A stretch of DNA of 44,833 bases from Calditrichota bacterium (GTDB lineage Bacteria > Calditrichota > Calditrichia > RBG-13-44-9 > J042): assembly GCA_013150955.1 (NCBI GenBank), contig JAADJD010000048.1:1-44833 (forward strand), in the 5' to 3' direction. Every line of letters starts with the position of its first letter. Position 1 is the stretch's first letter. Below the pieces are notes generated by a model that was not told the origin of the DNA, ran no database searches, and was given only the letters and a program-made list of their open reading frames with translations. The translations under genes were made by a program, and so were the position numbers. Below, one piece after another: positions 11,892 to 29,797 of this stretch.

Positions 11892-14753
11892 GTGTTGGGT
11901 ATGATGAGGCAAAACAGTCATAACATTCGCCGGTGGTTGGGATGGGTGATGTCCATGGGACTTCTGATTACAACCGTTTACGCCGGCAATACGGGCAAAA
12001 TTGCAGGGCGGGTGTACGATCGGCAAACGGGCGAACCGCTGGTCGGGGTGAACATTTTGATTAAGAACACTTATCTGGGTGCCGCAACCGATGAGGATGG
12101 ATTTTTCTACATTTTGCAGGTGCCACCCGGTATCTATGAAGTGGAAGCGGAGTACATCGGGTACCGGAAGGTGGTCATTCGCAACGTCCGGGTACGCGTG
12201 GACCTGACCACAGAATTGAAGATAGCCATGGAACCGGAGACCATTCAGGGTCCGGTGGTGGAGGTGGTTGCCGAAGAACCCATGGTGCAACCGGACATTA
12301 CCTCCACCCGCCGCATCACGTCGGAGGAGGAAATCATCGAGACGCCGGGGTTCGAGACCACCACGGACATCTTTATGTTGCAGGGCGGGGCTGTGGTGGA
12401 CGTGGGGCCGCAATCCATCCCGCTGGGAGATGGCATCCAGCTGCAGGTTCGGGACGAAAGTTTAAAGAACATTCATATTCGTGGCGGTCGCGGGGGCGAA
12501 ATTCTGTACATGGTGGATGGGGTTCCGGTCACCCATCCCATTTATGGTGGACGGGATGTGCTGGATTTGAATGTGGTGGATGTGCAGGCCATGGAATTGT
12601 TAACCGGGGCGTTTAATGCCGAATATGGCCAGGCGCAGTCAGGTGTGGTTAACATTACCACCCGCTCGGGATCGGATCGGTTTGAAGGGGGAATCGAGTT
12701 TAAAGCATCCGATCAAAATTTATTATTCCAATCCTTTTCTTCCCGGTACCTGTCCTTTTATCTGGGAGGGCCGGAACCACTCACCCGGAAACTGTTGCCT
12801 TCCCTGGGAATCCGATTGCCCGGACGATTTTATTATTTTATTTCCGGAAACGCCAATCTGGACAATACGGCCTATAACAACCACCGCAAACGGGGAACCA
12901 TTCAGTTTCTGGGGATGACCATTCGGGAAAAACAACAAAACACGGGCAACCTAAATGCCAAATTAAACTGGAAATTGTCCAATACCTTTGAAATTGTGCT
13001 CAGCTATCATGGATCCTGGCGCAGCTGGAGCAATTTTAACTGGCTCTGGAAGAACTACCCGGATCATATGGCGGCTTATCGCCGAAGCAACCAGAACGTT
13101 AACATCCGATTCAACCACACCCTGTCTCAGTCCACGTTCTACAATATTAATATTGGATATCTGGGAGTGGATTACGATGGCTCGCTGGATGGAAGGCGTC
13201 CCCCGGATTACTGGCGATTTTTTAAGGACAGCGTGGAATATGATTACTGGACTTACAGAGAGCGATTTGGCGATGCCCCGCCGGACTCGGTAAAGTCCAC
13301 CATCTTACCACCGCAGTTTGATCCGTATGGCTTTTTCGATAATCGGGGGTATGAAAACATCTGGCGCGATGATGAAACCCATACCTTCATTTTAAAAGGC
13401 GATCTCACCTCTCAGATTCACCCCGAACACCTGATGAAGACCGGGATCGAAATTCGGTATAATGATATCCGTTATGTGGACATCCAGGACGGCGGGGTGC
13501 TGTTATCCCGCTACGGGCAGCATTTGTATAAGAATGAGCCCTATTTCCCGCCGCCGATAGGGCCCTTTAAGGAATTTGGTCAGAATCGCTGGGTGTTTAA
13601 CGCCTATCCCGTGATCGGTGGTGCCTATATTCAGGATAAGTTCGAGAAGGAGACCATGATCATCAATGCCGGTGTGCGGGTGGACTGGTTTCAGGTGGGC
13701 TCTACCGTGATGCATCCCGAATGGAAGAAAACCTGGGAGGCCGCCACAGGGCTAAAAGCCGACTGGAAATGGATCAAATATAAGATCAGCCCGCGATTTG
13801 GGATTTCGTTTCCAATTTCTGAAAAAACGGTGGTCTTTTTCTCGTACGGACATTTTAATCAGCTTCCCGAATTGCAATTTTTTTATCGCGATCCCTACAC
13901 CGGTGGATTTACTGGCAATCCCCATCTGGATTTTGAGCAGACCATTCTGTATGAATTTGGATTTACCCATCAGCTGGCACGCAATTGGGCGCTGGATATT
14001 AAGAGCTACACCAAGGACATTTCCAAGCAGGTGGGAACCACCCGACTTCGTGCCGCGCTGGGGTTGCCGGTGGATTTGTATGACAATAATGGATATGCCC
14101 GTGCTCGCGGACTGGAATTCGAGCTGACCAAGCGTTATTCCAATTTCCTCCAGGGACGGTTGACTTACACCGTTCAGTGGGCGAATGGCTATTCATCCTC
14201 TGCTTTCGAAGATTACATCCGTTCTATTAATGACTTTCCCAATCCGATTCGAGAACGTCGGTTAAGCTGGGACATTCGCCACCAGTTTATTTTACAGGCA
14301 ATGATTGTTTCGCCACCGAAAAAGCACCTGCGATTTTTCGGCCTGAAGTTGCCCGATGACTGGAACATCACCATTCTTTCGCGCTATGCATCCGGACAGC
14401 CCTATACCCCGTTTACCCTGGATCCGGTGGAAGCGCAGAAAAAGGAGAATTCGGCAACTGCTCCACCCACCTACACCACCGATGTGAAAATTAAAAAAAC
14501 GTTCCGGATCAATGGGGTGAAACTGGCGCTCTTTGTGGATATTTTCAATGTGTTTGATACCCGAAACGTCCAGGTTTCTTACGGTTTTAACACCTACACC
14601 GGAAAGCCCTACCGATATGGCGATATCGATCCGCAGCTGGTGGGGAATAATATTTATCGATACTTCAGCTGGTATGAGATTTTACCCAAGATGGATCCGC
14701 GGCGATTTGCCCCCGGTCGTTATGCAAAGCTGGGCATGCGAATCGATTGGTAG
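11892..14753 (+). CDS. TonB-dependent receptor with carboxypeptidase-regulatory-like N-terminal domain
   Basis: This 953-residue outer-membrane protein would import a ligand using energy from TonB. After a signal peptide (ending near TTVYAG, 26-32) comes a carboxypeptidase-regulatory-like beta domain (about 33-115: GKIAGRVYDRQTGEPLVGVN). The plug follows (about 130-260), with IHIRGGRGGEILYMVDGVPV split over 195-213 and AEYGQAQSGVVNITTRSG over 243-260. The rest is an aromatic-rich 22-strand-type barrel. There is no STN domain, so no direct sigma/anti-sigma signalling is expected. The start is GTG with GGAGGG 6-11 bases upstream. The lipoproteins upstream and FnIII/PorV proteins downstream suggest a SusC-like importer for galactosides. 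Confidence 0.92.
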   Translation: MLGMMRQNSHNIRRWLGWVMSMGLLITTVYAGNTGKIAGRVYDRQTGEPLVGVNILIKNTYLGAATDEDGFFYILQVPPGIYEVEAEYIGYRKVVIRNVRVRVDLTTELKIAMEPETIQGPVVEVVAEEPMVQPDITSTRRITSEEEIIETPGFETTTDIFMLQGGAVVDVGPQSIPLGDGIQLQVRDESLKNIHIRGGRGGEILYMVDGVPVTHPIYGGRDVLDLNVVDVQAMELLTGAFNAEYGQAQSGVVNITTRSGSDRFEGGIEFKASDQNLLFQSFSSRYLSFYLGGPEPLTRKLLPSLGIRLPGRFYYFISGNANLDNTAYNNHRKRGTIQFLGMTIREKQQNTGNLNAKLNWKLSNTFEIVLSYHGSWRSWSNFNWLWKNYPDHMAAYRRSNQNVNIRFNHTLSQSTFYNINIGYLGVDYDGSLDGRRPPDYWRFFKDSVEYDYWTYRERFGDAPPDSVKSTILPPQFDPYGFFDNRGYENIWRDDETHTFILKGDLTSQIHPEHLMKTGIEIRYNDIRYVDIQDGGVLLSRYGQHLYKNEPYFPPPIGPFKEFGQNRWVFNAYPVIGGAYIQDKFEKETMIINAGVRVDWFQVGSTVMHPEWKKTWEAATGLKADWKWIKYKISPRFGISFPISEKTVVFFSYGHFNQLPELQFFYRDPYTGGFTGNPHLDFEQTILYEFGFTHQLARNWALDIKSYTKDISKQVGTTRLRAALGLPVDLYDNNGYARARGLEFELTKRYSNFLQGRLTYTVQWANGYSSSAFEDYIRSINDFPNPIRERRLSWDIRHQFILQAMIVSPPKKHLRFFGLKLPDDWNITILSRYASGQPYTPFTLDPVEAQKKENSATAPPTYTTDVKIKKTFRINGVKLALFVDIFNVFDTRNVQVSYGFNTYTGKPYRYGDIDPQLVGNNIYRYFSWYEILPKMDPRRFAPGRYAKLGMRIDW

Positions 14754-14829
14754 ATCGTGATGGGGCGGTTAACCGGTGGACAGAAAGAATTTGTGTAGAA
14801 ACCCGGTTCTTAACAACAGGAGAGCTGAC

Positions 14830-16632
14830 TTGGTGGTGAGAGGGTACTCCCTTCCTGGAGTGTTACTTGGCCTGTTGCTAACCGGAATGCCCCTTGTGGC
14901 GCAGCAACGGGTCAGTCTGGACTGGAAGATGCACGATGTGGGAAAGGTGCGTCAGTTTGTCTCCAATATCGGGAGTCTCTGGCCAACCTGGGTATTGTGG
15001 GGAAGCTGGACGGGGCTGATCTACTGCGAATTTCCCCCCAACAGTTTTGAGGAACACGTGGGAGAAGGCGGCATCTGGATTGGCGCCATCGTTGGAAGCG
15101 ATACGCTGGTTTCGGTAACCACCAGCTGGAATTCTGCGGTGGAGTTTTATCCCAGTGCGGCACCCTGGGACACCATCTGGGTGGTCTCAAAAAATGATAC
15201 TGTGGACATCCCTTACTGGCCGGGCTATGTGGGAATCTCCGATCAGGATTTTGTTTGCCGTTACAGCGATTATCACGTGCTGAACATTGCCCAGCATCAG
15301 CCCCTGTACGTGGATGTAATACAGGTCAGTTATGCCTGGAGTTCGCCGCCGCTGGATGAATTTATTGTTTATAACTTCTACGTGATTCCCACCCGCATTG
15401 ACCTGGAACAGGTTTACATTGCTTACTGGTTGGACGGGAATGTGGGGTACAGGGGACAGGGCTGGGATTTTGCCCTGGATGATTATTCCATTTATTTTGA
15501 GTCCCGTCATTTGGGCGTTTCCGTGGATGCGGAAGGACATGCCGATGGGAATGCCTTCAGCCCGATTGGTATTCGGGTATACCCACCCGAGGGGATAGCG
15601 GAAGATTCCCTGATCTGGACATTTAACTGGTATCCCGGACAGGGGATGGGCGCTCCGCCGCCACAGGACGGGCTGCGCTACCAGCAAATGTCAGAAGGCA
15701 TCATCATGCAAAATCAGACCCAACCCATCGGCTCGCAGTTCATTGTGGCATTTGGCCCCTTCAATTTGAAGGTGGGCGATACGTTAAATTTTGTAGTTGG
15801 CGAAGTGCTGGGGGAAGGCCTGAAAGGCATGCTGGCAAATGTGGATCGCCTGGATTGGCTCATTGGCAATCGTTTTCGGGTCCCATCACCACCCCCACGG
15901 CCACCGATCCGGCTGGAAACCCGCAACCACGAGATTGTGCTCCGCTGGGATCCGCTTCCCGGTCAGGTGAATCCAGAAACGTATGTGGATCCCTATCGAG
16001 CCGATTCCGTTGCTCAACCGTTTGAAGGCTATCGGGTGTACAAGAGTACGGTCAGTCCTACCGGCCCCTGGACGTTGCTGGCTGAATATGACATTCCAGA
16101 CAATGAATTCGGGCAGAACACCGGCCTGGCATATGAATACCGGGATGTGGGATTGCTCAACAATCTGGAATATTACTACTCGGTTACGGCGTTTTCCAAG
16201 CCGGATACGGTGGCAGATTTTCCATCTCAGGAATCCAGTATTAACAAAAATGTGGTGGTGGCCATTCCGGGTACCAATCCTCCCGAAACGGTTGGCCAGG
16301 TTGCCGTGGTGCCCAATCCATACCGGGGCGATATTGCTTACCACGCGTACAATCCTCCGTGGGAACGCCCGGCGCGAACCCGCGATCGCTGGATGGAGCA
16401 GGACCGACGGATTCAGTTCATTAACCTTCCTGCACGGTGTGAAATTCGCATTTATACCGTATCCGGGGATTGGGTCACCACCATTGTTCATGAAGATCCT
16501 CATCGTGGCTATGAGGATTGGAATCTCACTTCCTATGTGGGGCAGGCGGTTTCCAGCGGTATTTACCTGTTTACGGTAAAAGATCTGGACACCGGAAACG
16601 TTCAGGTTGGGAAATTTGTGATCATTAAGTAG
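14830..16632 (+). CDS. Secreted FnIII surface protein, tandem paralog 1
   Basis: About 600 residues. The AGGAG at 14818-14822 best fits a TTG start at 14830 (or GTG at 14833/14836); a GTG at 14776 would add a polar stretch before the signal peptide (LPGVLLGLLLTGMPLVAQ). The N-terminal half carries a GGIWIGAIVGSDTLVSV segment and a highly conserved block SYAWSSPPLDEFIVYNF. An FnIII domain lies around 375-490. The C-terminal domain has VVPNPYRGD in place of YPNPFNP and ends VGKFVIIK, a variant of the type IX sorting signal. It is closely similar to the next gene along its full length, indicating a recent tandem duplication. The function is unknown; it is a probable cell-surface component of the receptor locus. 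Confidence 0.8.
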   Translation: MVVRGYSLPGVLLGLLLTGMPLVAQQRVSLDWKMHDVGKVRQFVSNIGSLWPTWVLWGSWTGLIYCEFPPNSFEEHVGEGGIWIGAIVGSDTLVSVTTSWNSAVEFYPSAAPWDTIWVVSKNDTVDIPYWPGYVGISDQDFVCRYSDYHVLNIAQHQPLYVDVIQVSYAWSSPPLDEFIVYNFYVIPTRIDLEQVYIAYWLDGNVGYRGQGWDFALDDYSIYFESRHLGVSVDAEGHADGNAFSPIGIRVYPPEGIAEDSLIWTFNWYPGQGMGAPPPQDGLRYQQMSEGIIMQNQTQPIGSQFIVAFGPFNLKVGDTLNFVVGEVLGEGLKGMLANVDRLDWLIGNRFRVPSPPPRPPIRLETRNHEIVLRWDPLPGQVNPETYVDPYRADSVAQPFEGYRVYKSTVSPTGPWTLLAEYDIPDNEFGQNTGLAYEYRDVGLLNNLEYYYSVTAFSKPDTVADFPSQESSINKNVVVAIPGTNPPETVGQVAVVPNPYRGDIAYHAYNPPWERPARTRDRWMEQDRRIQFINLPARCEIRIYTVSGDWVTTIVHEDPHRGYEDWNLTSYVGQAVSSGIYLFTVKDLDTGNVQVGKFVIIK

Positions 16633-16651
16633 ATCATCAAAAGGGGATGGG

Positions 16652-18430
16652 ATGATCCGGTACTTACACATTTTTTCTGCCGTCTTATGGGGGATAAGCT
16701 CCCTGCTGGGGCAATTTACCACGCTGGACTGGAAAATCCACAATGTGGGTAAGGTTCGCCAGATCATCACCAACGTGGGGACCATTGACAATTACAATAA
16801 TATTACCAATTACAAGGGATTGATCAACTGCGAAATGCCGGTGGGCAGTAACGAGGAGCACGTGTATCAGGGAGGCATCTGGATTGGTGCCATTACCCCC
16901 GAAGGCGATACACTGGTTTCCGTGACCCGAACCCATTTCACCCCCGAAGAATTCTTCCCCAGCGCCGAACCCTGGGACACCATCTGGGTGGCCACCAAAG
17001 GCGATACGCTGGATATTCCATACTGGCCTGGATACACCGCCGTGTCCGATCAGGACTTTGTGTGCCGTTACAGCGATTATCATATCCTGACGGTGAAAGA
17101 TCATCAGCCGCTGTATCTGGATGTCATTCAACGCAGCTACGCCTGGAGTTCCCCACCACTGGATGAATTCATCGTGTTTAACTTTGATGTGATCCCGACC
17201 AAATTTGATTTACGGAATGTGTACGTGGGGTACTGGTTGCATGGGGAAATCGGGAACAACGATGTTGCGGATAATTTCATCGATGAATTGACCCTGTTTT
17301 TCCCGGAAAAATTCATGGCCGTAGCGGAGGATAATCCGGGGGGCAATGATGGCACTGCCATCAGCCCCATTGGCATCAAGATTCTCCGTCCGGCGGATTC
17401 GTCGCTGACCTGGACCTTCCGCTGGTATAATCACGAAGATCTGGCGGGTTACGGCCGGGATCCACTGCGATTTCGGGAGGCCATGGCCAGTGGCATTATC
17501 ATGCAGAATCGTCCGGATCCGGAGCGCGCCCACATTTCCGTGTGCTTTGGGCCCATCGAATATCTGCCGGTCGGCGATACCCTGCATTTTGAGGTGGCCG
17601 AGGTGTTTGGCTTCGGGCGCGAAGGGCTCATGAAAAATGCCGAGTACCTGGAGTTTTTGCGCGACCGCAATTATCGAGTGCCCTTTCCGCCACCGCCACC
17701 ACCGCTTCGGGTTATCACTGGAAATCATCGGGTAAAGCTGGTCTGGAAACCGCAACCGGGGGATGTCAATCCAGAAACCTATTTTGATCCCTATCGGGGC
17801 GATAGCAATCCGCAGCCCTTCGAAGGCTATCGGGTCTACAAAAGTACGGTCAGTCGGCAGGGGCCCTGGACGTTGCTGGCCGAGTACGACATTCCTGGAA
17901 ATGAATTCGGGCAAAACACGGGATTGCAGTACGAATACGAAGATGTGGGATTGCTGAACAATGTGGAATATTACTACACGGTGACCGCCTTTTCCAAGCC
18001 CGATTCGGTGACCCGCTTTCCTTCTCAGGAATCCAGTCTGACGGCCAATGCCGTGGTGGCCATTCCCGGTACCCCACCGCCGAAATCGGTAGGCAAAGTT
18101 GCGGTGGTGCCCAATCCTTATCGCGGGGATATCGCTTATCATACGTACAATCCTCAATGGGAAAAGCCAGGAGGAACCCGACGTTACTGGATGGAACAGG
18201 ATCGCCGCATTCAATTCATTAACCTGCCGGCACGCTGTGTCATTAAGATCTACACTCTTGCCGGTGATCTGGTCAATACGCTGTATCACGATAATCCCGA
18301 CCTGGGATATGAGGATTGGAATTTGACCTCCTCTGTGGGGCAGGCCATTTCCAGTGGAATTTATCTGTTTACGGTGGAAGATCTGGACAGCGGGGAGGTT
18401 CAGGTGGGCAAGTTTGTGATTATCAAATAA
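16652..18430 (+). CDS. Secreted FnIII surface protein, tandem paralog 2
   Basis: 592 residues with a signal peptide (FSAVLWGISSLLGQ). It aligns with the preceding protein from end to end: LDWK.HNVGKVRQ near the N terminus, GGIWIGAI, SYAWSSPPLDEFIV, an FnIII domain with FEGYRVYKSTVS, then VVPNPYRGD and the same terminal VGKFVIIK. It starts 19 bp after paralog 1 and is followed 32 bp later by the PorV-like gene. Differences are concentrated in the central third (about 180-330), which may carry ligand specificity. No enzymatic motif is visible. Confidence 0.82.
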   Translation: MIRYLHIFSAVLWGISSLLGQFTTLDWKIHNVGKVRQIITNVGTIDNYNNITNYKGLINCEMPVGSNEEHVYQGGIWIGAITPEGDTLVSVTRTHFTPEEFFPSAEPWDTIWVATKGDTLDIPYWPGYTAVSDQDFVCRYSDYHILTVKDHQPLYLDVIQRSYAWSSPPLDEFIVFNFDVIPTKFDLRNVYVGYWLHGEIGNNDVADNFIDELTLFFPEKFMAVAEDNPGGNDGTAISPIGIKILRPADSSLTWTFRWYNHEDLAGYGRDPLRFREAMASGIIMQNRPDPERAHISVCFGPIEYLPVGDTLHFEVAEVFGFGREGLMKNAEYLEFLRDRNYRVPFPPPPPPLRVITGNHRVKLVWKPQPGDVNPETYFDPYRGDSNPQPFEGYRVYKSTVSRQGPWTLLAEYDIPGNEFGQNTGLQYEYEDVGLLNNVEYYYTVTAFSKPDSVTRFPSQESSLTANAVVAIPGTPPPKSVGKVAVVPNPYRGDIAYHTYNPQWEKPGGTRRYWMEQDRRIQFINLPARCVIKIYTLAGDLVNTLYHDNPDLGYEDWNLTSSVGQAISSGIYLFTVEDLDSGEVQVGKFVIIK

Positions 18431-18462
18431 ATTTTCAAACGATTTAATTTGGGGTGGTTTCG

Positions 18463-19401
18463 ATGAAAATCCGCTGTTATCCCTTCTGGATGGCCCTGTG
18501 GATTGTGGGGATGGTGCCCTTAGCTGTTTGGGGTCAGTATCAGCGGCCCGGGGCCTCGGATGCCCAGTTTTTAAAAATCGACGTTAATGCGCGAGCCGCG
18601 GCTCTGGGGGGTGCTTTTATTGCTGTGACCTCTGGTGCGGAAGCGGCCTATTATAATCCAGCCGCCCTGGCCCGCATCCCCCGATTGGACGTGAGTGTAA
18701 CCCATACCCGTTGGTTTGCCGGAATTAATCACGAATTCGCCGCCATCGCCTATCGCTGGAATCGCGTGGGCACCGTTGCCCTGTCCGTCACTGCACTGTA
18801 CACCGACCTGATGCAGGTGCGTACACCATTGCAGCCCGATGGAACGGGGGAAACCTTCTGGGCGGGCAATTATCGGTTCGGCATTTCTTACGCCCGATTT
18901 TTAACCAACCGGGTAACTTTTGGCGGTACTTTAAATTTTATTCACATGTTTTTGTATCGGGATTTTAAGGCCAACGCCATCGCCGGCGATATTGCCGTTC
19001 TGTATGTTACCGATTTTCGAGGATTCCGCTTTGGAATGAAGATTGCCAACTTCGGTTCCGAAGTGAAGTACGTAAACGAATCCTACCCCCTGCCCACAAA
19101 TTTCCAGTTTGGGCTTTCCATTCACGCTATGGAAAGGGAACAGTCCACGTTGCTGATCAGCGTTTCGGCCATCAAACCAAACGATGGGCAACCGCTCAGT
19201 CAACTGGGAGTGGAGTGGAACTGGAATCAGGTCATTTTTTTAAGAGCAGGATATCAGTTGAATCATGACGTTTCCCGGTTTGGACTGGGCACCGGTTTGT
19301 ATTGGGGGACGGAATCGTTTCGGTTCAAATTTGACTATTCTTATAACGATTACACCCTGCTTGGGGGAACACACCGTTTTGGGTTTGGTCTGGCATTTTA
19401 A
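18463..19401 (+). CDS. PorV/PorQ-family outer-membrane beta-barrel protein
   Basis: About 312 residues from the ATG at 18463, which has GGGGTGG just upstream (a GTG at 18454 is also possible). After a signal peptide ending VWGQ comes the family hallmark AQFLKIDVNARAAALGGAFIAV and AAYYNPAALAR, followed by alternating strands of a FadL/PorV-like barrel ending in the aromatic GFGLAF. PorV-type proteins shuttle or anchor type IX secretion cargo at the outer membrane. Lying directly after two sorting-domain proteins, it may be a dedicated partner for them. It ends the long co-directional gene series; a 265-bp gap follows. Confidence 0.88.
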   Translation: MKIRCYPFWMALWIVGMVPLAVWGQYQRPGASDAQFLKIDVNARAAALGGAFIAVTSGAEAAYYNPAALARIPRLDVSVTHTRWFAGINHEFAAIAYRWNRVGTVALSVTALYTDLMQVRTPLQPDGTGETFWAGNYRFGISYARFLTNRVTFGGTLNFIHMFLYRDFKANAIAGDIAVLYVTDFRGFRFGMKIANFGSEVKYVNESYPLPTNFQFGLSIHAMEREQSTLLISVSAIKPNDGQPLSQLGVEWNWNQVIFLRAGYQLNHDVSRFGLGTGLYWGTESFRFKFDYSYNDYTLLGGTHRFGFGLAF

Positions 19402-19666: not shown

Positions 19667-22450
19667 ATGCATCCATTATCGATGGACAAACGAAAGATTG
19701 GGGAGCGGAAACTGCTGGATAAATCCAGAGACGGAGCGGATGCCGTTTGTTGCTGGCTGATCCACGGATTTTTCGTCCTTTTGTTTTTCTGGGGCTGGCC
19801 GGGAATAGCCATCCCCCAGGTTTCCGTGTATTACAAAAATTTTGTGCGCCACTCCGAGGGAGAATTCTGTGGTCACGTGCCGCCGGTGGCCCGTTTTCAG
19901 GTCTATCGAAATCATCAGTACGATACGTTACTCACCGAGAATGCACCGCGCTGGGAGGAAATGGGAGATCCCAACATTCCGGGCAGCGGGGTTTTTGGCG
20001 TGGAGCTGGGGAACTTTCCGGGACTTCAGGCGGGGGATTCGGTCAGCATCGCGTTTTATTGCCGCCAGACGCAACAGCGGGGTATTTTGAAAGCACGTGT
20101 GGAAGGCATTCCCTGGGCATATTTTCCATCCACCCTCCGGCTGCGACCCACCGATTTTCCGGAACCCCCGCAAGATTTGCGCCTGAACTGGACAACGTCT
20201 GGAGAACGGCGTCTGGAATGGACAGCAAAGGCGGAAACGTTTTACGATATTTACCGCAAAGCATTGTACGATACGGTAGCGGGTGGGCAATGTCGCAACT
20301 TATATGTTCGAATCGCCCGGCAGGTAGCAGAAGGATGGTATGTTGACCTCACCGCAGGTCAAGTACCCCATGGCTATGTTCTGATTCCCTACCGGAATGG
20401 GGTTGCCGGGCCGCATTCCAGGGAAATCGTCGATTATCCCCCGGCGCCCGTTCATCTGGAAGCCGCAGTCGTTTCCGGGGAAGGCCTTGGGGTTGCATTG
20501 AGCTGGATCCAATTGGGGGATACCAGCGGCTTCCAATATCACATTCATCGCTCCCGGGAATCCGATTTTTATCCGGATCAGAGCACGCGCATCGGGATTA
20601 GCAAACAGGCTCGGTTCCTGGATACCACTGTGGTGGCGGGAGAGCGGTATTTTTACCGGGTGGTCCCGGTAAATGCGTATCAGATTCCGGGAGAAGCGTC
20701 CCATACGGTGGGCATAACCGTTCAGATGCCAAAGACATCCGATCCCGATCTTGACGTGCTTTTCATTTCCCGATTACCGCGTTATCCGCGATACGAAGTG
20801 GTGTACGGTCCTCCTGAGGGATACAATCCCCATCTGAAGCCCGGTACCGAGCATCGGAAACATTACCCCGATCCGGGGGAGCTGATGCGCTATGTGGCGG
20901 TTATCCGGAATAGTGGTGGCGCAACCAGTCCTCCCTTTCAGGTGATCTGGCGGGTGAATGGAATTGAATATGCCCGACAGACCATCGCGCCATTGATACC
21001 GGGGCAGCGGGTACGGCATCAAATTCGATTGCCCTGGAAGGAGCGGCCCGACACAATCGAATGCCGGGTCGTGGCCGCGGATTCGTCCAGAGAGGTGAGC
21101 TACAGAAATAATGCGGTGACCATCGTGTCCCATGGGCTGGCTTTCCGGTTTTATATCGAAGCGAGCGCCCGTGCGTTTTTCGAAAACCGCGCCAATCCCA
21201 TGGGATCTTACAGCTTCGAGGACTGGGCACAGCTGCACATTCATCAGTTGAATGCCTTTTTTCAGCAGGCCAAATATCCCCCGTTTGCGCCGGATGGCGT
21301 CCCCGAGGCGGTGTTTCTGGACACTGTCAGTTATCACCCCGATGGGGCTTTGCCGGTTTATGGAACCCACGCGCCGGAAAACCTTATGTGGGATGGACAA
21401 TGGGGGTTTCGGGGAGATGCGTCCTCAATCGCTTATTTTCGAGATGTGGTGTTTGAGCAGCAACGGGGAATGGACTGGGCGTTGTTGCACGAACTGGGAC
21501 ATCAGCTGGGGTTAATCGATCTGTACAACATGGATGTTCAGCAGAGCGAATTTCGGGTCATTGAACCTCGCACCGGAAGGCCTCCGGATTTAGAGCCGAT
21601 TGCCTGGGATGTTCTGTATTACTGCAGCCGGAAAGATTATTTAATGCATACCAATTTTCAGGCGGGAATCTCGGATCATTCAGCGGGAGCGTTGTGGCGG
21701 AATCGAGGGCGGCGACGGGGATTTTTTGGAGATTACCTGGCTGACATTCCCGCAGAGAATACGTTAATCCTCCGCGACGCCAGCGGCCAGCGTCTGCGGC
21801 ACGCGCGGGTTACGGTTTATCAGATGCAGGACAATGTGATCCCCAACATTCCGAAATATCGGGGGATCACGGATGATCAGGGACGCTTTGTTTTTCCCCA
21901 TGTTACCGATTCCATTTATTTCGGAGGCATCTACACGAAAAACCCATTCTCCTCCTACGTATTTCCAGACCCCCACGTCGTGGGCACCAATGCCGTTTTG
22001 TTTATTCGAGTGGAGAAGGGAGACAGTGTGGGGTATCACTTCATGGACATATGTGATTTTAATGTGGCTTACTGGTCAGGGAATCGGGATTCCGCCACCT
22101 ATGAGCGTACAATTCGGATCTGGAGGAATATTCCGCCTGCCTCCCTGCCAAATCCGGAGGAACCCTCCGTCCGGGCGTTCCGCTTAAACCCGATTTTCCC
22201 CAATCCGTTCAATCATCGTTGTTTGATCGCCTTTCAGATACCGGAGAAGGAGAGGGTTCGGCTGGATGTTTACAACATTGGTGGGGAGCGTGTCCGACGG
22301 ATACTGGATGCCCTGCTGCTCCCCGGACGATACCTTTTTGCCTGGAACGGTCAAACAGATCGGGGACAACCCGTTCCCAGTGGAATGTATTTTGTGGTGT
22401 TGCAGACCGATACCCGGCGTGCAGTACGCAAAGTATTGTTGATCCGTTAA
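19667..22450 (+). CDS. Secreted zincin metalloprotease (HELGHQLGLID) with novel N-terminal module and type IX sorting domain
   Basis: 927 residues. The signal segment is about 30-50. The mature N terminus (about 53-165) is a module shared with two other proteins in the window, with a conserved Cys pair (Cys68, Cys132) and the motif GVFGVELGNF (108-117). Two FnIII domains (about 168-255 and 258-352) and a CARDB-like domain (about 395-485) follow. The protease domain has HELGHQLGLID (608-618), i.e. HExxHxxGxxD, with a possible Met-turn at Met660, so the third zinc ligand would be Asp. A carboxypeptidase-regulatory-like domain (about 695-785) and a C-terminal sorting domain (FPNPFNH at 844-850, ends VRKVLLIR) complete it. 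Exported by type IX secretion to degrade extracellular protein. The substrate is unknown. Confidence 0.87.
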   Translation: MHPLSMDKRKIGERKLLDKSRDGADAVCCWLIHGFFVLLFFWGWPGIAIPQVSVYYKNFVRHSEGEFCGHVPPVARFQVYRNHQYDTLLTENAPRWEEMGDPNIPGSGVFGVELGNFPGLQAGDSVSIAFYCRQTQQRGILKARVEGIPWAYFPSTLRLRPTDFPEPPQDLRLNWTTSGERRLEWTAKAETFYDIYRKALYDTVAGGQCRNLYVRIARQVAEGWYVDLTAGQVPHGYVLIPYRNGVAGPHSREIVDYPPAPVHLEAAVVSGEGLGVALSWIQLGDTSGFQYHIHRSRESDFYPDQSTRIGISKQARFLDTTVVAGERYFYRVVPVNAYQIPGEASHTVGITVQMPKTSDPDLDVLFISRLPRYPRYEVVYGPPEGYNPHLKPGTEHRKHYPDPGELMRYVAVIRNSGGATSPPFQVIWRVNGIEYARQTIAPLIPGQRVRHQIRLPWKERPDTIECRVVAADSSREVSYRNNAVTIVSHGLAFRFYIEASARAFFENRANPMGSYSFEDWAQLHIHQLNAFFQQAKYPPFAPDGVPEAVFLDTVSYHPDGALPVYGTHAPENLMWDGQWGFRGDASSIAYFRDVVFEQQRGMDWALLHELGHQLGLIDLYNMDVQQSEFRVIEPRTGRPPDLEPIAWDVLYYCSRKDYLMHTNFQAGISDHSAGALWRNRGRRRGFFGDYLADIPAENTLILRDASGQRLRHARVTVYQMQDNVIPNIPKYRGITDDQGRFVFPHVTDSIYFGGIYTKNPFSSYVFPDPHVVGTNAVLFIRVEKGDSVGYHFMDICDFNVAYWSGNRDSATYERTIRIWRNIPPASLPNPEEPSVRAFRLNPIFPNPFNHRCLIAFQIPEKERVRLDVYNIGGERVRRILDALLLPGRYLFAWNGQTDRGQPVPSGMYFVVLQTDTRRAVRKVLLIR

Positions 22451-22462
22451 AAGGGGAAAGAA

Positions 22463-25237
22463 ATGCCGGTCCGAAATGGGATTTTCATCTTATTGATCCT
22501 GGCTGCGTTGTCATCTGGCCAGGTTCCCTGTGAGCAGGATTCGGTTTACTGGAAGAATTTTGTGCGCCACGCGGACGGATCTACCTGCACCCACGTTCCT
22601 CCACAGGTTGCCCTGAAGGTGTTCCGTGCGTCTCATCCCGATATCATTTTGCTGGAAACCACTCCACGTCGGGAACCGGCAGCCGAGGCGAATGTTCCCG
22701 GCAGCGGGGTGTTTGGTGTGGAACTGGCCAATTTCTCCAATCCGGGAATTCGTGCTGGGGACACGGTAACCGTGCAATTCACCTGCCTGGAAACGCAGCA
22801 ACGAGGAACATTAACGGCTGTGGTTCAGGGCATTCCCTGGTATTATTTTCCCACCACGTTGTATTTGCAGCCAGAGGACTTTCCCGGGAGGCCTGAAAAT
22901 ATCACCATTCAACGAACCGATAATCATCAGCGAATCATTCAATGGGAGGCCAGGGGTAATCTTCGGTATCGCATTTATCGCAGTTCGATTGGAGATACCC
23001 TGTGTAATGGACAGTGGCGTCGAGAATACCGAATGATTGCGGAAGGGATCCAGGGTGGTGTTTACCAGGATACCGTTGTGGCGGATGAGGAGCGGCTTGC
23101 ATATGTGCTCATCGCTTATGATTCCACAGGGACAGCCTCTGCCCATTCTCGTGAAGTCATTGAGGCGGATCGCATCACCGGATTGCAGATCGTTGCCGGT
23201 ACCACCACGGCACAACTTCAGTGGTTGCCTTACCAGCCGCCTTTTGGAACGCTTGCCGGGTACACCATCTACCGACGCGAGAAAGAAGAATCGGTGTACC
23301 GGGCCGTTGGCTATACCAGTGGGGCCACGCAATATCTGGATACGCGCCTGCAGCCGGGAACGCAATATGTCTACAAAATTGTGGGAAGAATTTTTCCAGA
23401 AACAGAGGCCGGAACCTCTGACGAAGTCATGGTGGCAACCGGAACCAATCTTACAGGAAAGGTCTGGTACACCACGTTAAGGGTAGCGGTTGTTATTTAT
23501 CAGCATACGAACCGCGGTGGGATAACGGCAGAAGAACTCTCCGCAATCCGGAGCATGCTGGAAACCGCTCGCCTTTTCATCTGGCGAAATTCTGGTTTTC
23601 AATTAAATCTGGAGCTGGATTTTTATCCAATCTCCGCCTACCGGGGTTTTGGCGATTCTCAGGAATATCATCTGAATCAGACCGCCGAAGATTTAAGACA
23701 ATTTGGGGTGATGAATACCCAGTACGATCTGGTGTTTCGGATATGCCCGGCCATATCCGGATACTGGTCCCTGGGGGTTGTGCATCTGAATCTTCCCGGA
23801 CCGGAGCGATTAACGGGATTTTCTCATACCCAGTGGCCCGTCGTTACCGCTGTGCGCTATCCCGGTCAGGAGCCGCAGCTGGATTATGGCCTGACCTGGA
23901 TATTTGTTCATGAAATTCAGCATGCCATTGATGCACTTTACCATCACGTTGGGCATCCCGAGATGTACCATGGGGATCGTCCCTGGGATTTTCCCGATCC
24001 CTGTGGGGAACACTTTGATTTTCAGGCCAATATCTGGCGCAGTTTTAAAGATTACCGGGATTTGCCTCCGGAGTGGGGAGAAATTTACGAATCGGTGGAT
24101 CAGGATCAGGACGGACTGCCCGATATTGAGCCGCTGGTTCCACTGGACGAAGTTCGTTTCGGGAGCGCTCCGGATAAAGCAGACACCGACGGAGATGGCT
24201 TGAACGATTTAGAAGAAGCCATGGCCGGTATTTACACCGGTAGCGATCCCACCCTGCCCGACACCGATGACGATGGCAGGGAAGATGGGAGTGACACCTG
24301 GCCCCTGTACGCGGTATCTCCTGATGTTCCCCAAACGAACCAGCCGCCACGAATAGATGGATTCATTGAATCGGGGTGGCCGGTGTGGTCTTCCGGGGCG
24401 GCATATTTCCGGGTGCCTTTCTCGCCTCGAGCTTATCTCACCTGGGATGCCGATTCCCTTTACCTGGCGCTGGAAATGGATCGAGTGGCCACCCCGGTAA
24501 TATATCTGGATGTGCAGGCGGATGGCTGGTGGCACTCTGCGGGAAATGTTGAAATGGTGATCGATCCGGAATCCGGGACATTTTCGCGTTTTCGGAGCTG
24601 GGATGCCAGCGAGGCGGTGAAACAGTACAGCCTGAATCGTGGGGGACCGGGAGGCATGTGGGATACGGATCCGGAGTATCAACAGCAGTTCCAGCGTCGG
24701 GTGATTGATCCCGCAACGGTGCATCTCGCCGTTTTGTACGAAAATCCCGTCGTGCAGCTGGAACTGGCCATCCCCCGTTCTCCATTGGCCGGACTCAATT
24801 TACAGGCCGGGGATAGCCTGGGGATCAACGTGGTGTTTGAAGCCGTTGATCAACAGCCCGAAGATTGGGCCAGTCTGTTTGAACGATATGATTTTGTAAC
24901 GGTGACACTGAGAGAGCCGCTGGCTATTGCTGGCGAACAATCCGCAATTGTGCCCAACCGACTGGAACTGCTTCCCGGCTATCCCAATCCATTTAATCCC
25001 GCAACCACCATTACCGTTCTGGTACCGCGTAAAATGGATCTGGAGGTGGCGATTTTCGACGTCATGGGGCGGAGAATTCAGCGTATCGTTTCCGGGGAAT
25101 TTTTACCCGGTCGCTACAAATTTGTCTGGAATGGTATGGATGAAACTGGTACCTTTGTTTCAGGCGGCGTGTATTTTTGTCGCCTGAAAACCTCTGCAGG
25201 GGAGACACGCATACAAAAATTATTGCTCCTGAGGTAG
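22463..25237 (+). CDS. Secreted zincin metalloprotease (HEIQH) with novel module, calcium-binding repeats and type IX sorting domain
   Basis: 924 residues. Signal peptide 1-19. The shared N-terminal module (about 28-145) has Cys42 and Cys108 and GVFGVELANF (82-91). Two FnIII domains follow (about 146-235 and 238-327). The protease domain (about 335-530) has HEIQH at 483-487; a later zinc ligand cannot be named with confidence (His495, His498 and His503 are near). Thrombospondin-3-like calcium loops (about 545-612, with DQDQDGLPD and DTDGDGLND) come next, then a CBM9/DOMON-like beta domain (about 628-815) and a sorting domain (YPNPFNP 840-846). It lies 12 bp after the previous protease, and both start with the same module, so they are probably diverged paralogs with different catalytic cores. 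Confidence 0.85.
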   Translation: MPVRNGIFILLILAALSSGQVPCEQDSVYWKNFVRHADGSTCTHVPPQVALKVFRASHPDIILLETTPRREPAAEANVPGSGVFGVELANFSNPGIRAGDTVTVQFTCLETQQRGTLTAVVQGIPWYYFPTTLYLQPEDFPGRPENITIQRTDNHQRIIQWEARGNLRYRIYRSSIGDTLCNGQWRREYRMIAEGIQGGVYQDTVVADEERLAYVLIAYDSTGTASAHSREVIEADRITGLQIVAGTTTAQLQWLPYQPPFGTLAGYTIYRREKEESVYRAVGYTSGATQYLDTRLQPGTQYVYKIVGRIFPETEAGTSDEVMVATGTNLTGKVWYTTLRVAVVIYQHTNRGGITAEELSAIRSMLETARLFIWRNSGFQLNLELDFYPISAYRGFGDSQEYHLNQTAEDLRQFGVMNTQYDLVFRICPAISGYWSLGVVHLNLPGPERLTGFSHTQWPVVTAVRYPGQEPQLDYGLTWIFVHEIQHAIDALYHHVGHPEMYHGDRPWDFPDPCGEHFDFQANIWRSFKDYRDLPPEWGEIYESVDQDQDGLPDIEPLVPLDEVRFGSAPDKADTDGDGLNDLEEAMAGIYTGSDPTLPDTDDDGREDGSDTWPLYAVSPDVPQTNQPPRIDGFIESGWPVWSSGAAYFRVPFSPRAYLTWDADSLYLALEMDRVATPVIYLDVQADGWWHSAGNVEMVIDPESGTFSRFRSWDASEAVKQYSLNRGGPGGMWDTDPEYQQQFQRRVIDPATVHLAVLYENPVVQLELAIPRSPLAGLNLQAGDSLGINVVFEAVDQQPEDWASLFERYDFVTVTLREPLAIAGEQSAIVPNRLELLPGYPNPFNPATTITVLVPRKMDLEVAIFDVMGRRIQRIVSGEFLPGRYKFVWNGMDETGTFVSGGVYFCRLKTSAGETRIQKLLLLR

Positions 25238-25239
25238 GT

Positions 25240-25983
25240 GTGTCCCGCTATTTTCGACAAGCTGGATGGCCTCTCTGGCTGGCCTGTTTTATGGGTGCAC
25301 TGGCAACCCTGCAGGCACACGGCTATATCTTTAAGTATGCGCGGGAAGAAATGCAGGACGACATTCGCATTCAGGTAATGAACAATCGGATACAGATTTC
25401 CTACCAATCGGTTTACATGGGGCAGATTGCCCCTCATGTGCGGCTGATGATCGATTCGAACCAGGATACGTATTTTTCTGCAGAGGAAATCCAGTCCTTT
25501 TTCAATCAGGTACGGGAACGGGTGAATCAGCAACTCAGGGGATTTCGGGTGCAGCTCAATCAATCTCCACTGACGGTACAACTGGTGCAAATCGATTCGC
25601 CCACATTGCTGGTGGATTCTTTGCTGGCACCACTCACTCTGGAAATGAATTTTCGGGTGGAAGGTTTTGACTTAACCGATGGGCTGTATGAATTGCGCTT
25701 CGATCCACGAATCTTTTTCGTGGTTGGAAGTGAAATCGTCCAGCTGGCCAAAGCGCTGGTGGAATTTACAGACGATCAGGAAAAAGCCATTGCGCGTTAT
25801 GTGCAGATTCGGGTGACGGGAAATGGTGCCATTCGATTTTTGAATACCTATCCAGGGCGACTCCGGCACTCGGGTAAAATGGTTTACATCTTCGGTGTGT
25901 TTTATGATAAAACGGTGCTTCAGATTCAGGAAGGCCAGTTTCCGGATTTTCGGTTTCAATTTCTGGTGGGGGAAATGGAATGA
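25240..25983 (+). CDS. Secreted EF-hand protein, DUF1007-like, linked to metal transporter
   Basis: A GTG at 25240, two bases after the preceding stop and with GAGG five bases upstream, gives 247 residues; the longer frame from 25177 would overlap the protease gene by 61 bases and is less likely. The N terminus is a signal/anchor (WPLWLACFMGALATLQAHG). Residues 72-83 (DSNQDTYFSAEE) fit an EF-hand calcium loop. The rest is beta-rich. Proteins of the DUF1007 type are known to be encoded beside NicO-type nickel/cobalt transporters, and here the stop overlaps the NicO start (ATGA). I infer a periplasmic partner of that transporter; the assignment to DUF1007 is by context and general look. Confidence 0.72.
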   Translation: MSRYFRQAGWPLWLACFMGALATLQAHGYIFKYAREEMQDDIRIQVMNNRIQISYQSVYMGQIAPHVRLMIDSNQDTYFSAEEIQSFFNQVRERVNQQLRGFRVQLNQSPLTVQLVQIDSPTLLVDSLLAPLTLEMNFRVEGFDLTDGLYELRFDPRIFFVVGSEIVQLAKALVEFTDDQEKAIARYVQIRVTGNGAIRFLNTYPGRLRHSGKMVYIFGVFYDKTVLQIQEGQFPDFRFQFLVGEME

Positions 25984-26783
25984 ACCTGTCGACCATTAAC
26001 CGGCTGCTGTACTCTCCGGGAATGTCTCTGGAGACACTTCTGCTGGTGCTGGGAGTGGCTTATTTGTTGGGGGCATTTCATGCGCTGGGCCCCGGGCATG
26101 GCAAGGCGCTGATGGCCGCCTATCTGGTGGGAACGCGCGGACGGGTGCGTGACGCCGTAACCGTGGCCGCCGCAATAACCTTCTCCCATATTTTTAGCGT
26201 GGTGTTGATCGGATTGCTGGCCATGCTGGTGATGGACTTTTTCTTCCCCGAGACGGCCGGAATCTGGTTGAGTCTATTGTCTGGACTGGGCATTCTGGCC
26301 ATTGGCATCTGGCTGTTTGTAAAGCACTGGCGGCGCCGTCGCCATCGCGCGGGAGGTGTAACAGAGGGGCTTTCCCGGGATCACCCGGACACTCACCGAC
26401 TACGGGAGTCCCATTCCCATAAGGAGGATCATCATCATCGGGTGCCTCATTCCCACCAGAAACCGCCCACGTTCTGGGAGAATGTCATGCTGGGCATTTC
26501 CGGTGGGCTGACACCCTGCCCAAAAGCGGTGGTCATCATGTTGCTGGCGATTTCGCTGCATCGGATGGTGCTGGGGTTGCTGGTGATCTCGGCATTTAGT
26601 CTGGGTCTGGCAACAACGCTGTTTGGAATAGGGGTTTTGTTGGTGAAGGCGTCGCACTGGGCCACCCACCATCTCCCCGAAACTCCACTGGAATGGCTCC
26701 CACTGGTAGGAGCCGGCATTATCATCGGATTGGGTGGGTATGTGGTGTATTTAACCCTTGCGACCGGGAAAATACTGGGGTAG
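25980..26783 (+). CDS. NicO/RcnA-family nickel/cobalt transporter
   Basis: 267 residues with six membrane helices in two groups of three. The first half has LGAFHALGPGHGKALMAAYL (51-70) and the second GISGGLTPCPKAVVIMLL, the paired motifs of the NicO family, which exports or imports Ni2+/Co2+. The cytoplasmic or periplasmic linker (about 118-162) is His-rich (e.g. SHSHKEDHHHRVPHSHQK), as expected for metal binding. It is translationally coupled to the EF-hand protein. Direction of transport cannot be told from sequence; RcnA members are exporters, others feed metalloenzymes. It ends the group and a repeat copy follows. Confidence 0.88.
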   Translation: MNLSTINRLLYSPGMSLETLLLVLGVAYLLGAFHALGPGHGKALMAAYLVGTRGRVRDAVTVAAAITFSHIFSVVLIGLLAMLVMDFFFPETAGIWLSLLSGLGILAIGIWLFVKHWRRRRHRAGGVTEGLSRDHPDTHRLRESHSHKEDHHHRVPHSHQKPPTFWENVMLGISGGLTPCPKAVVIMLLAISLHRMVLGLLVISAFSLGLATTLFGIGVLLVKASHWATHHLPETPLEWLPLVGAGIIIGLGGYVVYLTLATGKILG

Positions 26784-26812
26784 AAATTGACCTGCGAAAA
26801 CCTGCGGGAAAT

Positions 26813-26968
26813 AAACCCAGATTATGCATTGGAACCACGAATTACACGAATTAACACAAATAAGAATAATATCTGGATGAAAATTTGATTCGAAGTTTAT
26901 TCGCGATTTGATTGATATTTTTTGGGTTCATTCGCGTGGTTCAGGGTTTCATGCATTATGTGGGATAA
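26813..26968 (+). repeat. Interspersed palindromic repeat, full copy (R3)
   Basis: A compact copy of about 156 bp with ends AAACCCAGATTATGCATT (left) and TGCATTATGTGGGATAAAA (right, inverted relation). The core TATCTGGATGAAAATTTG is in the forward orientation. It fills most of the gap between the NicO gene and the next glycosidase, whose ribosome binding site begins 12 bases downstream. Confidence 0.85.
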
Positions 26969-26992
26969 AAGGTAAACTTCGGGAGCGAGTTT

Positions 26993-29797
26993 ATGCGTGG
27001 AAAGATGATCGGTTTCACTCCCCGAATCGGCATTCCGGGATGGCTTCTGGCGATGGGCCTGGTGGCAACCCTTGTTGCTCAAACCACCGTTCCTCTCCTG
27101 TCGCAGCTGTCGGTGGATCGGAACGATCCCATTTACACCACCTATGCAGCAGCGATAGAGCGTTCCGAATTTATTCTGGACGAAGGGTATCATTTTCTGT
27201 TTTATGATTCTTCCCGCGGGGCCGATTTTACCACGGACACCGGCGGCGACCTGTGTCTGGCCTTTCAGCAGGGGATGCACTACGTTTACCAGACCGGTCA
27301 ATATTTCCGGCAACCGATCATTCGCATGTCCTACCCGGATCTGGTGCGTTACGAATTTTTCCCCTTTCCATTTTTACAGGTGGAGGCCACTTTTCTGGTA
27401 TATAGCTCCCACATCGCCATCTGGGACGTGAAGATCACCAATGTCAGTCAAACCCAACAGGTATTTCAGGTAATTCCTTTTGTGTGGAATCGCTATCGGG
27501 TGTTTAACGAAGTGACCTTTCATGAGCAGGATCGGGCCATTCATTTTGTGCACGAAGAGCTCCCGGATAGCTGGACACTGAATCACCAGGTGCCTTACGT
27601 GAAAGATGTCCGGAATGTGGTGATGGTTTCCCGAAAGCCACAACGGTTGACCAGCTATCGAAGTTACCACTGGGGAACGGTACCCATTCCGCAAAAGGTG
27701 GTCATCGAAAAGCCGGCCCGTTTTCTGGTATGGGGTAAGATGGTGCATTCCAATGGAGAGCGGTGCCGTCATCAGGATCCAGCGCCGCGGTTTCAGGTGG
27801 TGTTGCATCGGGATTCCACCCGATTGTTGACCGAAACCGCCCCCCGATGGGGAAGCGCCGATCCCAACATCAGTCCCTACGGTTTTTACGGCGTGGAGCT
27901 GGGGAATTTTTCGGATTTGCGGGATGACGACCGTTTTACCCTGATGATGTTCTGTCCGGCCACAAAAGAAGGGGCTGCCATCACCGACACGGTGCGGTTT
28001 AAAGAAACCTCTACCATCCAGCGTCGGGATCTTTTTCTGGAACCCGCACCGTTTCCGGAGGCGCCGCAACAGGTGGATCGGGACATCTGGGGTAGCGGGA
28101 CGGAAATTCGGCTGTTCTGGAAAAAATCGGGAACGGCCACAACCTACCATGTGTTCCGCCGGGATTATCGCCGGGAAGGGGTTTACCGATTACTGGCAAC
28201 CCGGCAGTCGCGAACGTTTTACACCGATCGCAATATTCAGGGGGATCAAATCTACGGGTATGTGGTCATTGCCGAAGATTCGCTGGGACGCTGGAGTATG
28301 CATTCAACAGAAATCAACAACATTGCGGGTAGCGATTTCTTAACGGACATGCGCTATCCCGATCAACTGCGGAATCGGGTACGGGACATGGCCCGGGTGG
28401 TGGCATTGCCCATCCGCTTTCAGCTGGCTCCCGGGCAATCGGATTCCCTGCGGATCATTCGCATGGTCGCGCGTCCCGGCACACCCGTTCAGGAAATGCT
28501 GGATTCCGCCCGTGCCCTGATGAGGTTCGATCTGCAGCCGTTCATTCGGGCAAACGAAGAATTATTTGCGCGGCTGCCGGTACCCGATTTCCCCGATCCC
28601 GACCTCACCCTGCTGTACTGGAGCAGCTTTAACCTGATGCGTCAGCTGATGTTGCCTCCGGAAGGAAAATGCGGATACAATTATTACGTCTTCTCCCGCG
28701 AACCGCAATGGGGATGGGGACATGGGGGCCAGGTTTTCCACGAGAGCCTGACCATGCTGGCCTACGCATTTCTGGATCCCCGGAGTGCCATGGATTCTCA
28801 GCGCATCTATCGCGAGCGGCAGCAAAGGAACGGCTACATCAATTACCGCACCGGCCCCTATCTGGATGAAACGATCCCTTACAATCATCAACTGACCACC
28901 TCGGCGCCCTGGTATGCCTGGCAAAACTGGATGTTGTATCGGATAACCGGCGATCGACAGTTTTTAAAAGAGATGTACAAATCCAGCAAAGCGTTTTATG
29001 AATATTATGTGCGGAATCGAGATCAGGATGGCGATGGTCTTTGCGAATGGGGGGCGCATGCGGTGCTGGAGTCGGTGCGGGATGCGCGGGTGGCCGTGTG
29101 GGACGAGGTCGGCTGGCCGTCCCACTTTGAGGCGCTGGATTTGAATACCATGCTGGTTCAGGAGGCGCGCAGCCTGGCGGCCATGGCCCGGGAGCTGGGA
29201 AAAACCCGCGAAGCCCGTCGATGGGAGCGGGAGGCCCGGGAACGGGACCGGAAAATCAACCAGTTCATGTGGGATCCGGAGACCGGTTTTTATTACCATG
29301 TGGACAGAACCGATCACGACTTTAGCTACAAAGCACCGGACGATTTGAAACGGCAGGAAATTATCGGCTTTTTGCCCCTGTGGGCGGGGATTGCCAGCCG
29401 GGAGCAGGCCAAACAACTGGTGAACCACCTAACGAATCCCGCAAAATTCTGGCGGCCGTACGGCATCCCCTCACTGGCGGCGGATGATCCCTATTACAAT
29501 CCAAAAGGCTACTGGAACGGCCCGGTGTGGGTGGAATGGAATTACCTCATCGTCCACGGGTTGTTGCAATATGGCTATCGAGAAGAAGCAAAAATGCTGG
29601 TACAGCGCGTGGCAGCCAACATGATCAATCAACTCAAGAAGGATCACCAGTTCTGGGAGTTTTACAGTCCGGACGAACCGTGGGCGGGATATCATCGGCA
29701 GTACATCTGGGCGGGACTGATCGCCCGCATGTTGCTGGATGTGTACGCTCCGGAAGTCTCAGGGGTAAGGGAATCTTTTTTATCGAAGCCAGACTGA
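26993..29797 (+). CDS. MGH1/GH63-like glycoside hydrolase with inserted Cys-pair module and FnIII
   Basis: 934 residues with a signal peptide (LAMGLVATLVAQ) and no sorting domain, so probably periplasmic. The N-terminal beta domain (about 35-241) is interrupted by the shared module (about 242-360: Cys258, Cys321, GFYGVELGNF at 297-306) and an FnIII domain (about 365-448), then resumes (about 466-530). The catalytic (alpha/alpha)6 barrel (about 540-920) has WGWGHGGQVFHES, a calcium-loop-like DQDGDGLCEWG and YWNGPVWVEWNYL, the style of the GH63/mannosylglycerate-hydrolase-like group. The second protein of this type at 36680 lacks the insertion. It starts at ATG 26993 with GGGAG seven bases upstream; ATG 27005 is an alternative. 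It is probably exo-acting on alpha-linked oligosaccharides; the substrate is unknown. Confidence 0.85.
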   Translation: MRGKMIGFTPRIGIPGWLLAMGLVATLVAQTTVPLLSQLSVDRNDPIYTTYAAAIERSEFILDEGYHFLFYDSSRGADFTTDTGGDLCLAFQQGMHYVYQTGQYFRQPIIRMSYPDLVRYEFFPFPFLQVEATFLVYSSHIAIWDVKITNVSQTQQVFQVIPFVWNRYRVFNEVTFHEQDRAIHFVHEELPDSWTLNHQVPYVKDVRNVVMVSRKPQRLTSYRSYHWGTVPIPQKVVIEKPARFLVWGKMVHSNGERCRHQDPAPRFQVVLHRDSTRLLTETAPRWGSADPNISPYGFYGVELGNFSDLRDDDRFTLMMFCPATKEGAAITDTVRFKETSTIQRRDLFLEPAPFPEAPQQVDRDIWGSGTEIRLFWKKSGTATTYHVFRRDYRREGVYRLLATRQSRTFYTDRNIQGDQIYGYVVIAEDSLGRWSMHSTEINNIAGSDFLTDMRYPDQLRNRVRDMARVVALPIRFQLAPGQSDSLRIIRMVARPGTPVQEMLDSARALMRFDLQPFIRANEELFARLPVPDFPDPDLTLLYWSSFNLMRQLMLPPEGKCGYNYYVFSREPQWGWGHGGQVFHESLTMLAYAFLDPRSAMDSQRIYRERQQRNGYINYRTGPYLDETIPYNHQLTTSAPWYAWQNWMLYRITGDRQFLKEMYKSSKAFYEYYVRNRDQDGDGLCEWGAHAVLESVRDARVAVWDEVGWPSHFEALDLNTMLVQEARSLAAMARELGKTREARRWEREARERDRKINQFMWDPETGFYYHVDRTDHDFSYKAPDDLKRQEIIGFLPLWAGIASREQAKQLVNHLTNPAKFWRPYGIPSLAADDPYYNPKGYWNGPVWVEWNYLIVHGLLQYGYREEAKMLVQRVAANMINQLKKDHQFWEFYSPDEPWAGYHRQYIWAGLIARMLLDVYAPEVSGVRESFLSKPD

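Follow-up and report, generated by a model that had tools for sequence, protein, structure and literature searches.

A predicted beta-sandwich module shared by secreted proteases and a glycosidase of one nutrient-utilisation locus

Introduction

Enzymes of glycoprotein-degrading loci are known to carry carbohydrate-binding modules (CBMs): a B. fragilis mucinase is reported to work by a CBM-dependent mechanism (PMC13003899), and a mucin locus of B. thetaiotaomicron (PMC11992087) is a further example of a glycoprotein-degrading locus. In the 44,833-nucleotide stretch of DNA analysed here, which is called the window throughout, two secreted metalloproteases and a neighbouring secreted glycosidase each have one homologous module of ~120 residues. 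Like those CBMs, this would be an accessory domain borne by secreted enzymes, proteases as well as glycosidases, with one kind of target; unlike them, it matches no Pfam CBM family, it is found in other phyla and the proteases of its locus have T9SS tails.

The locus itself resembles the SusCD utilisomes (PMC7618045) in combining a TonB-dependent receptor with co-encoded surface enzymes. It differs in having no SusD match among the window proteins scanned and in having ~600-aa proteins and a PorV-like protein instead. The C-terminal sorting domains of the T9SS (PF18962, PF13860) are, like the module, small domains that recur on several of a cell's secreted proteins, but the module is N-terminal or internal, belongs here to one locus and is unrelated in sequence. 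There is also a loose Foldseek likeness (TMq 0.37) to the carboxypeptidase regulatory-like/EMC7-type beta-sandwich (PF13620; 7kra_G), from which the module is set apart by an E of 0.75, an rmsd of 12.5 and the lack of a sequence match. Accessory modules are a kind already known; the family of this one is new, and literature searches returned nothing on it.

Results and discussion

The three copies were located with a profile of the module.

19823..20182, + strand: module copy 1, residues 53-172 of a 927-aa metalloprotease (host 1, ORF 19667-22450); hmmsearch 3.7e-48
22541..22906, + strand: module copy 2, residues 27-148 of a 924-aa metalloprotease (host 2, ORF 22463-25237); hmmsearch 2.2e-45
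27725..28075, + strand: module copy 3, residues 245-361 of a 934-aa GH63/MGH1-like glycosidase (host 3, ORF 26993-29797); hmmsearch 1.7e-41

Pairwise BLASTP between the module segments gave E = 3e-51, 4e-23 and 3e-14, the first two values being those of copy 1 against the other copies, and values in this range exclude chance similarity. The initial annotation had proposed one module common to the three proteins, which is borne out by the profile matches and these BLASTP values, and the motif and cysteine positions that it gave were nearly exact on rechecking. H-x-x-G-x-x-C-x-H is at residues 62, 36 and 252 of hosts 1, 2 and 3, L-x-E-[TN]-x-P-R at 89, 63 and 279, and G-[VF]-[FY]-G-V-E-L-[GA]-N-F at 108, 82 and 297; the cysteine pairs are 68/132, 42/108 and 258/321. 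A profile search of the 4.07-Mb genome at E <0.5 found these three copies only, all within 9 kb.

Across the genomes searched, 62 distinct copies were found in 28 genomes of three phyla. Carriers make up 13 of the 40 genomes of the window's phylum, 8 of 82 in a second phylum, to which the one match among ~350 genomes outside the window's phylum had pointed, and 7 of 245 in a third. A hit at E 0.59 (G000:C41) was too weak and was left out, and L005 and G675:C275, which are one contig, were entered once in the counts. Two Spirochaetaceae hits of the contig scan (L006, L007) proved to be MreC-like proteins with a chance SGVYGVEL stretch and were discarded. In the genome paper on the possible relative Caldithrix there is no mention of T9SS or of C25.

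Pfam and NCBIfam profiles gave nothing above their curated cut-offs in the module region of the three host proteins. When 32 module members were compared with Pfam, the best E was 0.04, and such matches came from single members and scattered families; a profile search of PDB sequences with the module gave no match (best E 0.37). The earlier suggestion that this may be an undescribed domain is supported, as no family in Pfam, NCBIfam or the PDB sequences covers the module.

AlphaFold2 predicted seven strands for copy 2 (alignment of 32 rows, pLDDT 88.6), at 6-12, 26-32, 35-41, 60-64, 78-85, 90-97 and 109-111. In the model of copy 3 with its FnIII domain (43 rows, pLDDT 91.4, pTM 0.88) the module strands are at 5-11, 26-31, 34-40, 58-62, 74-81, 86-93 and 102-104, and the strand order is identical. 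Different folds for the segments would have spoken against a common module; the models of copies 2 and 3 have the same fold, and copy 1 should share it because it is 54% identical to copy 2. Foldseek with the module alone found no good match in the PDB (best E 0.34, TM at most 0.37 among the matches listed) and weak phage beta-sandwich matches in a viral structure library (best E 0.008, TM at most 0.45). No carbohydrate-binding module was among the best matches. On these models the module is a real, undescribed domain family with a predicted seven-strand beta-sandwich fold. It might instead be a divergent member of a described Ig-like, carboxypeptidase-regulatory or known CBM family missed by sequence libraries, as a seven-strand beta-sandwich that weakly resembles other beta-sandwiches in structure (TM-score up to ~0.45) would allow. 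Pfam and NCBIfam offer no match at a meaningful E, however, and no PDB structure matches the module alone at E <0.3, and we consider such a membership unlikely; it concerns naming and is compatible with any functional reading.

The best conserved stretch of the 62 copies is A-P-R-W...D-P-N-I-x-G-x-G-x-x-G-x-E-L-G-N-F, the conservation of which exceeds that of the strands.

19931..20017, + strand: signature loop of copy 1, LTENAPRWEEMGDPNIPGSGVFGVELGNF, from conservation in 62 copies
19868..19870, + strand: codon of Cys68 in copy 1; its putative disulfide partner Cys132 is at 20060-20062

Residues P, W, N, I, G, G, E, L, G, N and F of the loop are 90-100% conserved in these copies; the columns lie mostly outside predicted strands, yet have high pLDDT. 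Copy 2 departs from the consensus: it is without the conserved Trp and DPNI (it has PRREPAAEANV) and has LANF in place of LGNF. The cysteine pair, put forward at first as a common feature, is one in all three copies of the window but not throughout the family, where 50 of the 59 copies covering the two sites have both cysteines (both lost in 3, the second alone in 6, the first alone in none). Since the pair is missing or partial in 9 of 59 copies, the disulfide is not obligatory, and a stabilising but non-essential role is plausible. The glycosidase module copies of L052 (G004) and L137 (G648) lack both cysteines; the L052 module has also lost its start, and no full-length core marker was found in G004.

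Each copy is followed by a domain of the FnIII type.

20183..20452, + strand: FnIII-like domain after copy 1, from the alignment; class-specific divergence
22907..23176, + strand: FnIII-like domain after copy 2, from the alignment
28076..28342, + strand: FnIII domain after copy 3, from model strands 119-197 and FnIII matches in the PDB

That an FnIII domain lies directly C-terminal of the module, as noted from the outset, was corroborated by Foldseek with the module and FnIII model, where FnIII proteins dominate the matches (E from 2e-7), and by a W, a D and a Y in the FnIII part that are invariant across 43 rows. Pfam fn3 matched in 5 of 43 members. Host 2 has a second FnIII domain at residues 239-307 (Pfam fn3, E 2e-5).

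The glycosidase has a paralogue without the module in the same locus, 7 kb away, which provides a natural control.

36680..38878, + strand: module-less glycosidase paralogue, 45% identity over the catalytic part
27665..28363, + strand: insertion with module and FnIII domain in host 3, residues 225-457, missing from the paralogue

A profile of three module-less paralogues matches host 3 at residues 38-224 and 458-919 only. Judged from this profile match, the module and FnIII domain are an insertion into one of two glycosidase paralogues. This bears on the possibility that the module has a structural or export role, as a prodomain, folding aid or stabiliser of secreted enzymes that has no specific ligand. 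Such a role would suit the N-terminal position after the signal peptide in most proteases and the possible stabilising disulfide; it is at odds with an internal insertion in a glycosidase whose paralogue does without the module, with the joining through FnIII to unrelated catalytic domains and with a loop that is better conserved than the strands. We judge it improbable.

The catalytic parts of the two proteases contain the following motifs.

21488..21520, + strand: zinc-protease motif HELGHQLGLID of host 1, a sequence motif with a weak M6-like NCBIfam match
23909..23923, + strand: HEIQH motif of host 2, a sequence motif

Host 1 is zinc-protease-like, with the weak M6-like match and CARDB. Its T9SS tail scores 25.8 bits with TIGR04183 (cut-off 23) and its genome encodes a T9SS translocon (SprA_N, E 1e-37); by its sorting domain and this translocon, host 1 is a predicted T9SS substrate. 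Host 2 matched no peptidase family in Pfam or NCBIfam. Its T9SS-like tail, at 22.1 bits, is slightly below the TIGR04183 cut-off of 23, and a CBM9-like region was weakly matched in an orthologue. The catalytic domain of host 3 is GH63/MGH1-like (PF22422, E 9e-48; YgjK in the PDB, E 3e-22); Pfam and NCBIfam scans found no T9SS sorting domain in this protein, which ends shortly past the catalytic domain. Some module glycosidases, host 3 among them, have no T9SS tail and for this reason are probably periplasmic.

Across the family the hosts are three metalloprotease types, the glycosidase, C25 (gingipain-family) peptidases (PF01364) and a TlpA-like protein. Sharing by unrelated enzyme classes, which had been claimed for the window, therefore extends to C25 peptidases and a TlpA-like protein. 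The predicted beta-sandwich is attached to a glycosidase and, more often, to proteases; in most protease hosts it is N-terminal, directly past the signal peptide, and most of these also have a C-terminal sorting domain. The TlpA-like host is in L049 (G012:C311), and a close relative, split over several ORFs, adjoins a module glycosidase in L129 (G477:C436). The two TlpA-like proteins, from genomes of two phyla, are 88-89% identical, which suggests recent transfer or a contaminated bin.

The reading proposed here is that the module, with FnIII as spacer, is fused to enzymes of a SusC-like nutrient-utilisation locus, namely its proteases and a glycosidase. As a CBM does, it would keep enzymes of different kinds on a single common substrate, with contact by way of the conserved loop E-x-A-P-R-W...D-P-N-I-x-G-x-G-x-x-G-x-E-L-G-N-F. 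That proteases occur together with glycosidases suggests that the substrate may be, for example, a glycoprotein or proteoglycan. We infer each of the three steps: that the module binds at all, that what it binds is the substrate, and that this substrate is a glycosylated protein. The exported hosts differ in chemistry (zinc proteases, C25 peptidases, GH63/MGH1-like glycosidase), no catalytic family in Pfam or NCBIfam was matched within the module, and its best conserved columns are mainly in a confidently predicted loop, with few in strands; these observations speak for targeting. Against it stand the absence of a CBM from the best Foldseek matches and the lack of the conserved Trp and DPNI in copy 2. 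A new non-catalytic beta-sandwich accessory family that targets the enzymes of the locus to one shared substrate has, in our estimate, an even chance of being correct. The broader suggestion of the initial annotation, a shared target or surface, is reasonable.

The genes around the module enzymes are as follows.

11892..14753, + strand: TonB-dependent receptor (Pfam Plug, CarboxypepD_reg, OMP_b-brl_4), conserved near module genes
14776..18430, + strand: two paralogous ~600-aa secreted proteins, 61-63% identical, of the family that marks the locus
18454..19401, + strand: PorV-like outer-membrane protein, directly upstream of module gene 1 (Pfam PorV, E 3e-5, slightly below cut-off), position conserved
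25252..26783, + strand: small secreted protein and membrane protein of the NicO/DsbD_2 type, lying between module genes 2 and 3, a pair conserved elsewhere

The locus core consists of a LamG protein with a T9SS tail, two smaller secreted proteins (9687, 10376), the TonB-dependent receptor, one to three ~600-aa proteins and the PorV-like protein. After it come module proteases, the small protein and NicO, then the module glycosidase, other glycosidases and DUF2961; in L104, from the second phylum, the gene order is nearly that of the window. No match to the SusD family was found among the window proteins scanned, and the two ~600-aa proteins belong to no Pfam family. The C-terminal part of the ~600-aa family matches proteins of many other genomes, and it is the full-length relatives that mark this locus type. 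The small secreted protein matched no known family; its pair with NicO/DsbD_2 recurs at module loci of three phyla, and one might guess that it supplies metal to the metalloproteases. The downstream part of the locus (29955-38878) encodes a GH116-like/DUF608 protein, a DUF2961 protein, an amino-acid permease and the module-less glycosidase.

Of the 13 module genomes, 11 have full-length members of the ~600-aa family (>500 bits, a threshold chosen after the scores were seen), compared with 5 of the 372 others (Fisher 6e-16); within the phylum the counts are 10 of 12 and 3 of 25 respectively (p 4e-5), the genomes being phylogenetically non-independent in these statistics. Such co-occurrence is also expected if the module docks to another product of the locus. 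The main rival of substrate targeting is a docking domain, by which the enzymes would be recruited to the co-encoded TonB-dependent receptor, ~600-aa or PorV-like protein in a utilisome-like outer-membrane complex. Adjacent genes in an order conserved across phyla, the strong co-occurrence with the ~600-aa family and the likeness of the modules of co-encoded proteases in some genomes, as one common partner predicts, are all in keeping with docking. The five non-module genomes with a full-length ~600-aa protein are harder to accommodate, as they keep the core genes in loci without the module. In one of them (L107, G002:C57, annotated with Pfam) a GH2 and a GH43 with T9SS tails, both module-less, lie between core genes; the module therefore follows the enzyme set, not the receptor core. 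L107 and L108-L111 represent a sister form of the locus in which the receptor core is the same. Conversely, some module enzymes have no core genes in their vicinity (loci L037, L040; genomes G029, G030 C63, G004), and the module is present on tail-less, probably periplasmic glycosidases, to which substrate binding fits better than surface docking. We regard docking as rather improbable.

A tree of the modules was compared with the enzyme classes of the hosts. Glycosidase modules fall into two groups, and protease modules are not sorted by enzyme class; the two protease modules of the window are sisters (99/96). With class labels taken from the catalytic domains and the module tree already seen beforehand, AU tests rejected class monophyly for the HExQH class (p 0.001) and were marginal for the other two protease classes (p 0.025, 0.031). 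This lack of sorting by class, the sister loci without the module and the tail-less glycosidases together favour substrate targeting over docking to receptor machinery.

In the eight genomes with at least two protease classes, the similarity of the home pair was compared with same-class matches elsewhere. For the module, the home pair is above both same-class values in G029 and G030, between them in G000, G037 and G440, slightly under both in G014 and far under both in G430 and G431. For the adjoining FnIII domain, which mostly sorts by enzyme class, unlike the protease modules, the home pair is under both, save two G030 pairs that are between. From these comparisons we read that, in some lineages, the module alone has probably been exchanged or homogenised between protease genes that lie side by side; part of the pattern is accounted for by a generally slow change of the module. 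As the modules of the two proteases within G430 and within G431 are only 39-41% identical, any homogenisation is not universal. The description of the module as mobile holds in that it moves between proteases of the locus and was inserted into one of two glycosidase paralogues; it does not roam freely, being found in the window's genome in three genes of one locus and elsewhere mostly with the locus.

Conclusions

An unannotated domain family, found in at least three bacterial phyla, has been defined. The module may be the address tag of one nutrient system, structurally new and exchanged among unrelated proteases, glycosidases and a thioredoxin-like protein, which would bring all of them to one glycoprotein substrate or surface complex and whose lineage-specific sequence recombination would keep matched between co-encoded proteases; this fuller picture is tentative and, as a whole, somewhat doubtful. 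The module is the mark of an entire nutrient locus in which no SusD is recognised, and offers a testable handle on what is degraded by bacteria that are known here mostly from draft genomes. It suggests that a shared, exchangeable domain may keep the proteases and glycosidases of one locus on the same target.
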